64,000 nucleotides of DNA from Trichodelitschia bisporula (taxonomy: Eukaryota > Ascomycota > Dothideomycetes > Phaeotrichales > Phaeotrichaceae): contig ML996695.1 in NCBI GenBank assembly GCA_010356995.1, positions 567,061-631,060 on the forward strand. The letters are read 5' to 3'. The notes beneath the pieces were generated by a model. The model saw only the letters and a program-made list of their open reading frames with translations, was not told where the DNA came from and searched no databases. Below, piece by piece: positions 48,151 to 52,304 of this stretch. How positions within the stretch are numbered: position 1 is the first letter of the stretch; each line of letters starts with the position of its first letter. The translations under genes and the position numbers were made by a program.

Positions 48151-50295
48151 ATGCCCGGCATCAAGTTACCTCCCCGGCCCGACCCTCCACCCCACCCTCC
48201 CTCAATCGCGCCGCCGTCAACCCCGCCTCCCGTGCCCTCGGCAAACTCCTCCAAAGCTGGCCCTGCCCTCGCCTTTGCCGCGCAGGCGGAGCGCTTAGGG
48301 CTATATACGCGCACACAGGAAGAGGAAGAAACCGGTCTTGTGGGCCACACGCAAGCAGTCGCGGCGAAGTTTGTGACGGCGCAAGACCCGGTGGTGCAAA
48401 CAGCAGAAGGGGGTCGGCTGCCTGCAGTGCCCTTGGAGGAAGCGCTTGTGTTAAATGCGCTGCGCGGGGAGGTTGAGGGAGAAGCGCGCCGTGAAGAGAA
48501 AGTGCCGATTGGGGCTGTGAGGGAAGGGAGGGATGGAGCTCTACATGGCATTGGGTTTGGTGGACTTGGAGAAGAGAAGGGAGGTGGACGTACAGATGCG
48601 TCGCTTGGGGATCAAGCCCCGGTTACCCATACCAACCCACTGTTCCCGCAGCTGCCGATGTACGGCCCGCCTACGAGGATGAGGAACTTGGAGTGTAAAG
48701 TCTTTGCGGGTTCGTCGGCTGTAGGGTCCTTCTGCTTTCTCATGGTCATTGTGCTAGGAGCCTTGTTCACAAGTGTGCCAGATGCGATAAGAAGGATTCT
48801 CAAGGGAAAGAGACTGGAGGAGAGACCGCTTTGGGAACTTGAAAGGAAGTGTGCAGAGCGGAGAGAAGAAGCTGAGCGGGAGTGGAAAAGCCGAAGCGAA
48901 AAAGGGTTGGGAGGTCAGGCGGGATTCGGGGACGATAAAGACGATGGACGGGAGAGATTCGTACCTACGGAAGGCGGACCCGATCCCCTCGTCTGTGACG
49001 TTGGCTACTACGCCCGTCGCGTCGGTCTTGACTCCGAGAAGTTCCTCGTCCAGACTGAAGACGGTTTCATTATCGAACTCTGGCACCTCTACAACCCCCT
49101 CATCTACAAGCCTCGTCCACCCAACGAACGCGGGCCCCTCACCCCAGATGTCTTTACCACCTTCAACAACCAAACCTCTCCGCCCGATGGCACGGCAAAG
49201 TATCCCGTCCTTCTCATCCCTGGCCTCCTTCAGTCCGCTGGAACCTACTGTAGCACCGACTATAACTCCCTCGCCTTCTTCCTGGCTCACTCTGGCCTCG
49301 ATGTCTGGCTCGGCAATAACCGCTGTGGCTCCTTACCACGTCATGCACTTCTAAAGCCCGATGACCCGCGCATGTGGGCCTGGAACATCCGACAGATGGG
49401 CGTGCTAGACCTGCCCGCCCTGATATCGCGCGTGCTTCGTGAAACACGTTTCAAGAAGCTTGCGCTTGTCGCACACTCACAAGGAACCGCGGAAGTCATG
49501 GTCGCGCTGGCTAAGGAACAGCGGCCCGAGATCGGGGACTGTATATCGGTGGTGTGTCTGCTTGCACCGGCGGCTTATGCGGGCCCGCTGATCGGCAAGA
49601 TGTACTTCAAGTTCATGAAAGTCATCAGTCCTGGCATGTTTCGCGTCATGTTCGGAATTCGCTCGTTTATCTCTCTCATGCTGTCGATGCGGGGATTATT
49701 GCCGCCGCGGATATATGGTTTTCTGGGGTACCGCGTGTTCAGCTTCCTGTTTGACTGGACGGATGAGCGGTGGGACAATGAGTTGCGGAATCGGTGCTTC
49801 CAATTTGCCCCGGTGTACGTCAGCGCGGAGAGTATGAGGTGGTGGCTAGGCCGGGAGTGCTTCGCGCGGCACAAATGCATTCTGAGTACGCGAGAGGAGA
49901 TGCACATGGAAAACCAGGAAGATTCGGATGACGAGGCGGTCGAGGACGCGGCTGACGAGAAGGCGGAGGACCGTGGACGCTATGCATGGTACGATGAACA
50001 TGTGCCACCGATGGCTATCTGGGTTGCTGGGCGGGACGACTTGGTGGATGGACAGCGGCTGCTGCGGCGGTTCGAGCGCGGTCGCGAGCCGTTCGTGGAG
50101 GTGGTGCGGAGCAAGGTGATTGATGGATACTCACATTTAGACGTCCTCTGGGCCGTGGACTCGGTTGAGCAAGTTGGACGGGAGGTGTTGGAGTCGATAT
50201 GGAAGACGGCCCCGAAGGCTGAGCGGGCCAGGTGTCGGATACCTGTCGGGTGTGAGAAGCTGGAAGTGTTCAAGGGCAGGAGAGGAGACACATAG
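48151..50295 (+). CDS. Steryl ester hydrolase-like / acidic lipase-family lipase
   Basis: Intronless, 714 aa, ATG 48151. After a Pro-rich cytosolic head of about 185 residues, one transmembrane helix (FAGSSAVGSFCFLMVIVLGA, about 188-210) anchors the protein. The abhydro_lipase region begins at DVGYYARRVGLDSEKFLVQT, with EDGFIIELWHLYNP. The core has VLLIPGLLQSAGTYCSTDYN, GLDVWLGNNRCG, and the nucleophile elbow LALVAHSQGTAE with Ser443. The likely acid lies in VAGRDDLVDG and the histidine in YSHLDVLW. This membrane-anchored architecture matches yeast Yeh1/Yeh2 and Tgl1, which release sterol and fatty acid from steryl esters on lipid droplets or the plasma membrane. The specific orthologue is not assigned. 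The sterol acyltransferase that makes the presumed substrate lies about 9 kb away. Confidence 0.88.
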   Translation: MPGIKLPPRPDPPPHPPSIAPPSTPPPVPSANSSKAGPALAFAAQAERLGLYTRTQEEEETGLVGHTQAVAAKFVTAQDPVVQTAEGGRLPAVPLEEALVLNALRGEVEGEARREEKVPIGAVREGRDGALHGIGFGGLGEEKGGGRTDASLGDQAPVTHTNPLFPQLPMYGPPTRMRNLECKVFAGSSAVGSFCFLMVIVLGALFTSVPDAIRRILKGKRLEERPLWELERKCAERREEAEREWKSRSEKGLGGQAGFGDDKDDGRERFVPTEGGPDPLVCDVGYYARRVGLDSEKFLVQTEDGFIIELWHLYNPLIYKPRPPNERGPLTPDVFTTFNNQTSPPDGTAKYPVLLIPGLLQSAGTYCSTDYNSLAFFLAHSGLDVWLGNNRCGSLPRHALLKPDDPRMWAWNIRQMGVLDLPALISRVLRETRFKKLALVAHSQGTAEVMVALAKEQRPEIGDCISVVCLLAPAAYAGPLIGKMYFKFMKVISPGMFRVMFGIRSFISLMLSMRGLLPPRIYGFLGYRVFSFLFDWTDERWDNELRNRCFQFAPVYVSAESMRWWLGRECFARHKCILSTREEMHMENQEDSDDEAVEDAADEKAEDRGRYAWYDEHVPPMAIWVAGRDDLVDGQRLLRRFERGREPFVEVVRSKVIDGYSHLDVLWAVDSVEQVGREVLESIWKTAPKAERARCRIPVGCEKLEVFKGRRGDT

Positions 50296-50484: not shown

Positions 50485-50492
50485 CATCACGC
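50485..50492 (+). repeat. Left target-site duplication of the MITE
   Basis: CATCACGC directly abuts the left inverted repeat and matches 7 of 8 bases of the right copy. Confidence 0.75.
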
Positions 50493-50513
50493 CAGAGATG
50501 CCAATAATCGATC
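50493..50513 (+). repeat. Left terminal inverted repeat of the MITE
   Basis: 21 bases beginning CAGAGATGCC; the reverse complement occurs perfectly at 50938-50958. Confidence 0.85.
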
Positions 50514-50937
50514 GATTATCGTTTAGAATCGAAAAATCGATGGATTGATCAAGTAATATCGATCCGATCAGAGTGAAAACATCGATCGAATAATCGAGTA
50601 ATCGATACCCAAAAGGGTAATGATATTTCCTCAACGGGAAGGAAGCCGTGACTTACATAATCCACGTAAGTATTATTAGCTGGCCTATTATATCAGGTGT
50701 AAAGCATTCCAGGTGTTCCTCCACCCTAATTTATTAGGCATCAATAAGGCATCGAGGCTGTAAGGTATCAGCCGCGGGCGAGTAGGCAGTCAGGTGACAC
50801 TTGTATGTAACTAGCTAGTCCCGATTATATGTATATTACCTGATGGGGATTTCTTAATGATAATCGTTATGATCGCGATCCAACGATCGATAACCGTTTT
50901 CTTAACGATCAATCCAATCAAGGTCTGAAAATCGATT

Positions 50938-50958
50938 GATCGATTATTGGCATCTCTG
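50938..50958 (-). repeat. Right terminal inverted repeat of the MITE
   Basis: Reads GATCGATTATTGGCATCTCT plus G on the plus strand, the exact reverse complement of the left repeat. Confidence 0.85.
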
Positions 50959-50966
50959 CATCATGC
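50959..50966 (+). repeat. Right target-site duplication of the MITE
   Basis: CATCATGC, one transition away from the left copy. It contains an ATG (50963-50965) that opens a 133-codon frame overlapping the threonine aldolase start out of frame. Confidence 0.75.
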
Positions 50967-51233
50967 GGAGCGCGTCTGTTTCCTCGCCCATCTCAACTCC
51001 AATGGTTAGCGCAACTCCCCGCCTTCTTCGCCTGGCGTTCCGCCACCCAGCAACCTTATCTCGTCGTAAGCCCGCGCCCCGCAATCGCGCCCTACGCATG
51101 TTACCCCGCATACTCACTCAACCCCGCAGTCCATCGCGTCCTACACCCCGCACATCATATCTCGCCCCTTCCCCGCGCCCTCTCCACATCCCCCACTCTC
51201 CTCTCAAACAACCCCTCTACGCCACCTACAACA

Positions 51234-52304
51234 ATGGCCGCCCTCCCCACCACCACCGCCTGGTCAACTCCCGGCCCTGCAACCCACGACTTCCGCTCCG
51301 ACGTCGTAACAACGCCGACAGCCTCCATGCTGTCCGCCATCGCCGAAACCACCCTCGGTGACGACGTCTTCCACGAAGACGCCACGACCGCCAATCTGGA
51401 GGCCCACATCGCCGACCTGACCGGCCACGAAGCCGGCCTCTTGGTCATGAGCGGCACAATGGGCAACCAGATCGCCTTGCGCACACACCTAGGCGGGCCG
51501 CCTCACAGCGTGCTCTGCGACGCGCGGTCCCACGTGCTATGCTACGAGGCCGGCGGGGCGGCGAGCCTGTGCGGTGCGCTGGTCGTGGGTGTCGAGCCGA
51601 AGAACGGGATGTGGCTTACGCTGGAGGAGATTCGGGATAAGGCGGTGTTGGACGGGGATGTGCATGGGTGTCCGACGCGGGTTGTTAGTTTAGAGAATAC
51701 GCTGAATGGGGTGCCGATGCCGCTGGGGGAGACGAGGCGGATTGTGGAGTGGGCGCGTGGGGAGGGGATTGTGTGCCATTTGGATGGGGCGAGAGTGTGG
51801 GAGGCGGCGGTGGCGGGGGCGGGGAGCTTGCGGGAGCTGTGTGGGGGGTTTGATAGTGTGAGTTTGTGCTTTAGTAAGGGGTTGGGGGCGCCGATTGGGA
51901 GCGTGTTGGTTGGGAGGAGGGAGTTTATTGCGAAGGCTAGGTGGGTGCGGAAGATGCTTGGGGGAGGACTGAGGCAGGCTGGTGTCATTGCTGCGCCGAT
52001 GATGGTGGCGGTTCAGGAGACGTTCGTGGGTGGGAAGTTGAAGGCGAGCCACGAGATGGCGAAGCGGGTGGAGAAGCTGTGGGTGAGCTTGGGAGGAAGG
52101 GTGAAGTTGCCGGTGGAGACGAATATTGTGTGGTTGGATCTCGAGGCATGTGGATGGGATTATCCGCGGTTCATTGAGCTGGCGAAGAAGCACGGCGTTA
52201 AGATTAGTGGGGCTAGACTCGTGGTGCATTATCAAATTTCGGATGAGGGTGTTAAGGCGTTAGAGGGGATTATGAAGGAGATGCTCCTGGGGGAGACGGC
52301 ATAG
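51234..52304 (+). CDS. GLY1: Low-specificity L-threonine aldolase
   Basis: Intronless, 356 aa, ATG 51234. A PLP enzyme that cleaves L-threonine (and allo-threonine) to glycine and acetaldehyde. Recognisable parts: HDFRSDVVTTPTASMLSAIA at the N-terminus, GDDVFHEDATTANLEAHIAD, the phosphate-binding SGTMGNQIALRTHL, SLENTLNGVPMPL, CHLDGARVWEAAV (aspartate facing the PLP ring) and the Schiff-base lysine, Lys215, in LCFSKGLGAPIGSV. The length is typical of the fungal enzyme. No clear in-frame targeting sequence precedes the ATG, so it is probably cytosolic. Codon choice changes strikingly along the gene: mostly C-ending codons before about 51480, then mostly G- or T-ending codons. The 466-bp MITE ends 275 bases upstream and may lie in its promoter or leader. 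Confidence 0.95.
   Translation: MAALPTTTAWSTPGPATHDFRSDVVTTPTASMLSAIAETTLGDDVFHEDATTANLEAHIADLTGHEAGLLVMSGTMGNQIALRTHLGGPPHSVLCDARSHVLCYEAGGAASLCGALVVGVEPKNGMWLTLEEIRDKAVLDGDVHGCPTRVVSLENTLNGVPMPLGETRRIVEWARGEGIVCHLDGARVWEAAVAGAGSLRELCGGFDSVSLCFSKGLGAPIGSVLVGRREFIAKARWVRKMLGGGLRQAGVIAAPMMVAVQETFVGGKLKASHEMAKRVEKLWVSLGGRVKLPVETNIVWLDLEACGWDYPRFIELAKKHGVKISGARLVVHYQISDEGVKALEGIMKEMLLGETA

Follow-up and report, generated by a model that had tools for sequence, protein, structure and literature searches.

A short non-autonomous element, very probably of the hAT superfamily, upstream of a threonine aldolase frame in Trichodelitschia bisporula

Transposons of the hAT superfamily, among them hobo, Ac, Tam3, Hermes and fungal hAT elements, have short inverted ends, which often start with CAG, together with clustered subterminal repeats and flanking 8-bp duplications. 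The Hermes transposase is described as binding short subterminal repeats through its BED domains (PMC10368747). The Kat1/MAT-switching element of Kluyveromyces lactis, a domesticated and active system, combines inverted ends with the subterminal hexamer TGAATT; the abstract of that study names terminal and subterminal repeats as important for cleavage, and its results section calls an enhancing role of the hexamer repeats speculation (PMC4763223). Short, non-coding hAT-derived MITEs with inverted ends include mar in Drosophila (PMC3517528) and BniHAT in Brassica, the latter described as high-copy (PMC7385995). In Pyrenophora tritici-repentis, hAT elements that carry a histone H3-like gene occur both as full-length copies and in a recombined short form, which keeps the dimerisation domain between inverted ends (PMC3538342).

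The element analysed here, e1, shares with the hAT superfamily its 8-bp duplication, short inverted ends and clustered subterminal repeats, and it has a sister element, e3, carrying a fragment of a hAT dimerisation domain. It differs from the superfamily's coding members in lacking a coding sequence of its own, and the assembly yielded no intact transposase to partner it. Like mar and BniHAT it is short and non-coding with inverted ends, but we found two diverged copies instead of a high-copy family. Its subterminal hexamer is ATYRAT where Kat1 has TGAATT, and e1 shows no sign of domestication. The Pyrenophora short form retains the dimerisation domain, of which e3 keeps part. The Pyrenophora elements differ in carrying a histone H3-like gene and in being accompanied by full-length copies, none of which was found here.

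We examined e1 in a 64-kb window (the whole stretch of 64,000 nucleotides, contig 9, 567061-631060) and searched the 25.65-Mb assembly of 30 contigs. The element spans positions 50493..50958 (+). Its left and right terminal inverted repeats (50493..50513, +, and 50938..50958, -) are perfect over 21 bp, as first described, and match at 23/24 positions over 24 bp, with one mismatch. The 8-bp target-site duplications, CATCACGC on the left (50485..50492) and CATCATGC on the right (50959..50966), agree at 7/8 positions; the single C/T difference that had been noted between them was found on direct reading. The preliminary description gave 466 bp as the length of a non-coding interior. The non-coding character holds, with a longest stop-free run of 53 codons on either strand, but 466 bp is the length of the whole element, and the interior between the 21-bp ends measures 424 bp. 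A scan of the window returned 28 perfect 12-bp inverted pairs at most 3 kb apart, a count in which each register of one repeat is separate and several are registers of e1. Among these pairs, e1 alone has flanks matching at 7/8 or better, the next best reaching 4/8.

The GC content of e1 is 40%, compared with 55% in the window. Repeat-induced point mutation was considered as the source of this low GC and set aside: the two indices for e1 (0.67 and 1.24) are near the window's values of 0.63 and 1.22, and a clear signature is absent in such short sequences. The corresponding values are 0.73 and 1.00 for e2 and 0.66 and 1.32 for e3, the two related elements described below. The predicted RNA fold of e1 is strong (z -6.8 against 100 shuffles); we do not take this as evidence for an RNA, because long inverted ends alone give such folding. 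No Rfam family matched at gathering scores in the window.

Searches of the genome with e1, with its 20-bp end and with e2 yielded a single further close element, e2 (C14:713826-714283, 458 bp), which is flanked on both sides by GGACGGAC, a perfect 8/8 duplication. All four ends of these two elements begin with the same 10 bp, CAGAGATGCC. Across the gap-free aligned columns, 300 of 422 are identical (71%), and the alignment scores 296, where 100 mononucleotide shuffles reached 89 at most. BLAST confines the similarity to e1's first 170 bp and its last 87 bp. When the middles were aligned permissively, 110/170 positions matched with a score of 34 (shuffle mean 16, maximum 38.5 in 300); as this score lies below the shuffle maximum, the middles are hardly related.

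These searches bear on the label MITE, under which the element was first described. Its shortness, lack of coding sequence, inverted ends and 7/8 duplication fit the label; membership of a high-copy, homogeneous family does not. The 20-bp end of e1, with up to three mismatches, matched four places in the genome, all in e1 and e2 (reversed-pattern control, one). A looser end pattern matched seven, four in e1 and e2 and three elsewhere, the latter equal to the control count of three. None of the three extra places has a partner end with a duplication within 1.5 kb: the best partner reached 13/22, while e1 and e2 reach 21/22 in the same scan. We therefore consider it very unlikely that e1 belongs to a classical MITE family of many near-identical, recently amplified copies, even though its length, non-coding interior, low GC and intact ends would suit one, given the one further copy in 25.65 Mb at 71% identity over aligned columns. 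The expectation of many copies sharing these ends was not borne out, and a many-copy MITE family was rejected on these searches, whose copy counts are lower bounds, in an assembly that may be incomplete. Between e1 and e2, 29% of aligned columns are different, but the two copies of the duplication differ by only one base in e1 and by none in e2, which argues against one recent burst. With n = 2, the sequences of e1 and e2 probably parted well before their present insertions.

The connection to a hAT transposase comes from e3, present as two copies that are 99.6% identical (C23:91619-92831 and C26:67530-68740; 1213 and 1211 bp). Both end in perfect 20-bp inverted repeats, CAGACCGGTCAATAATCAAT. 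The C23 copy is flanked by a perfect 8-bp duplication, TCTAGTTC; the flanks of the C26 copy, TCGTGACT and GCCTGTGG, do not match, and no duplication was found there. An 8-bp duplication therefore accompanies three of the four elements (e1, 7/8; e2, 8/8; e3 on C23, 8/8; e3 on C26, none). A 73-residue peptide of e3 matches PF05699 (Dimer_Tnp_hAT) at 9.5e-12 and represents a fragment of the C-terminal hAT dimerisation domain. The same peptide gave four PDB matches at E ≤ 1 (E 0.0065-0.0087), two labelled Hermes transposase and two labelled transposase, which we take to be Hermes as well.

The ends of e3 are related to those of e1 and e2. The pattern CAGANNNGNCRATAATCRAT, with one mismatch allowed, has eight matches in the genome, namely both ends of e1, of e2 and of the two e3 copies, with none in the control; as the ends themselves served to build the pattern, their recovery is by construction, and the information lies in nothing else matching. 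For the right 90-bp end of e1 compared with the left and right ends of e3, 0/300 shuffles reached the observed score. The left end of e1 does not resemble the e3 ends beyond shuffles (59/300 and 77/300 reached the score). The four pairings of e2 and e3 ends were reached by 4, 39, 62 and 1 of 300 shuffles, two near the limit and two not. On the resemblance of their sequences, e1 and e2 are two diverged members of a close subfamily, and the two e3 copies form its sister subfamily.

Two further observations concern the e3 copy on C23. Nested at e3 positions 589-796 (L015 4708-4915, G000:C23) is a dispersed repeat, about 208 bp long, whose ends read TGTCAC...GTGACA. Leaving out the e3 copies and self-matches of the e3 ends, 27 further rows match this repeat at 85-99%; in 19 of these the match covers almost the full repeat, and several copies lie less than 10 kb from a contig end. 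It may be a solo LTR or another small transposon. Separately, an open frame near e3 (L015 2765-3664, -, G000:C23) has, judged by eye, the look of a pogo/Tc1-type DDE transposase.

We conclude that e1 is very probably a short hAT element of the non-autonomous kind. The original hAT call is upheld on a firmer basis, the perfect 8-bp duplication of e2 together with related ends that bound a hAT dimerisation-domain fragment in e3. It is this linkage to a hAT coding fragment, and not duplication length alone, that supports the call. Duplication length alone does not exclude Mutator/MULE, P or Merlin elements, and a duplication of about 8 bp would be compatible with a non-autonomous member of any of these. 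We regard such an origin as most improbable: a search of the genome for the MULE domain gave one match below cut-off (E 0.06), with matches in 4/14 control genomes, and it is hAT dimerisation-domain fragments that sit within elements with related ends.

The subterminal regions of e1 are rich in short motifs. The left region (50493..50622, +) contains seven ATYRAT hexamers, six of them ATCGAT, together with TGGATTGATC, and the right region (50829..50958, -) contains five, of which three are ATCGAT. The clusters of ATCGAT pointed out in the preliminary description are thus present, with six copies in the left 130 bp, three in the right 130 bp and none in the interior. Counted per 130-bp end, ATYRAT sites number 7 + 5 in e1, 4 + 5 in e2 and 5 + 5 in e3 (range 4-7 over six ends), whereas the background in the window as a whole is about 0.11 sites per 130 bp. 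The interiors hold one site in e1 and none in e2. The right end of e1 also contains a 16-bp motif, TTGATTGGATTGATCG (50906..50921, -; G000:C9:617966-617981), whose other genomic occurrences are confined to the left ends of the two e3 copies. With one mismatch allowed, TTGRTTGGATTGATCG, a pattern derived from e1 and e3 themselves, has three genome matches, one in e1 at its right end and one at the left end of each e3 copy, and none in the control. By analogy with Kat1 and Hermes, the clustered ATYRAT sites are putative binding sites of the transposase.

We searched the assembly for an autonomous partner, in searches that score the best candidates only. The PF05699 profile returned five matches, two of them within the e3 copies. 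The match on C29 (G000:C29:23709-23954; L013 4709-4954) scores 60.4 bits and has one internal stop; the locus is a hAT transposase relic of another family. The match on C19 is borderline against the cut-off of 21.4 bits, scoring 21.0 bits, or 21.6 together with its neighbours, and one on C1 lies below the cut-off (19.6 bits). The 10 kb surrounding each of the C29, C19 and C1 matches yielded no CAGAGATG end, nor any pair of CAG-starting ends with a duplication that spans the match. A protein search with the e3 fragment recovered only the two e3 copies and the C29 locus (35% identity). The BED zinc finger gave one match below cut-off; 3/14 control genomes had matches too, all likewise below cut-off. 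The hAT-like RNase-H domain PF14372 had no match here or in any of the 14 control genomes, and this search is hence uninformative.

The genome search thus returned no autonomous hAT transposase with the same ends, the partner that the preliminary description had looked to; the PF05699, e3-peptide and end-pair searches found no complete transposase with e1-type ends in the assembly. Related ends and the 16-mer link e1 to e3, which carries the dimerisation-domain fragment only and no full transposase. As no transposase with such ends was found, the pairing of enzyme and ends is drawn only from the resemblance of the ends.

A plausible course of events would begin with a hAT transposase supplied in trans from elsewhere. 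The enzyme would have bound to the 21-bp ends and to the ATYRAT/TTGGATTGATC motifs clustered in the subterminal regions. It would then have excised e1 from a donor site and, through a cut staggered by 8 bp, placed it in the interval that separates the lipase stop from the aldolase start; the stagger would have left the 8-bp duplication at the insertion site. Since a complete transposase with such ends was not found, e1 is probably stranded, and the same lack suggests that it is probably immobile at present in this genome.

The insertion lies between two open frames, as had been reported. Upstream is a lipase-type frame (48151-50295; PF04083, E 2.2e-10), and downstream a threonine aldolase-type beta-eliminating lyase (51234-52304; PF01212, E 4.4e-83), whose ATG at 51234 is 275 bp from the end of e1. 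The right duplication does supply an upstream ATG, at 50963, consistent with the first reading of the locus. This ATG opens a frame of 132 codons (50963-51361, +) that is out of frame with the aldolase ATG. The frame has a high content of R, P and S and no Pfam match. Further ATGs in the same frame, at 51002 and 51098, lie outside e1 and its duplication, so the overlapping frame is independent of the insertion.

This arrangement raises the question of co-option, in which e1 would affect threonine aldolase expression as a promoter or via the upstream open frame. Proximity to the aldolase ATG and the overlap of the 132-codon frame with the aldolase start speak for it. So does the position of e2, which, like e1, follows the stop of one open frame and precedes the next frame on the same strand, here between a glycosyl hydrolase (PF11790) and an Rsc7/Swp82-type chromatin subunit (PF08624). 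Two copies are, however, too few for a positional bias, such positions are likely by chance among dense genes, and the overlapping frame would exist without the insertion. We judge co-option very unlikely, and the position of e1 beside the aldolase offers no more than a pointer to possible expression differences among strains.

Reading e1 as a non-autonomous hAT element, we tentatively consider a more specific possibility: that e1 and e2 represent a hAT subfamily of low copy number whose ends are conserved while the middle may vary freely, the ends preserving the end-recognition code of a lost fungal transposase. This possibility, which we hold with less than even confidence, draws on the retention of CAGAGATGCC and ATYRAT-rich ends in e1 and e2 while their middles hardly match, and on the separate e3 subfamily, whose ends are built alike but have different outer bases. 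In the open-access literature consulted on hAT MITEs of plants and animals and on fungal hAT elements, no description of these ends was met, which only weakly suggests that none exists. The elements form a small, cleanly bounded fungal hAT family whose substrates remain and whose working enzyme was not found in the assembly; otherwise, this is ordinary transposon biology. The family also yields a prediction of the subterminal motif to which the missing transposase would have bound. If the ends have been kept in this way, a transposase's end-recognition code would be readable from its orphaned substrates after the enzyme has gone from the genome.
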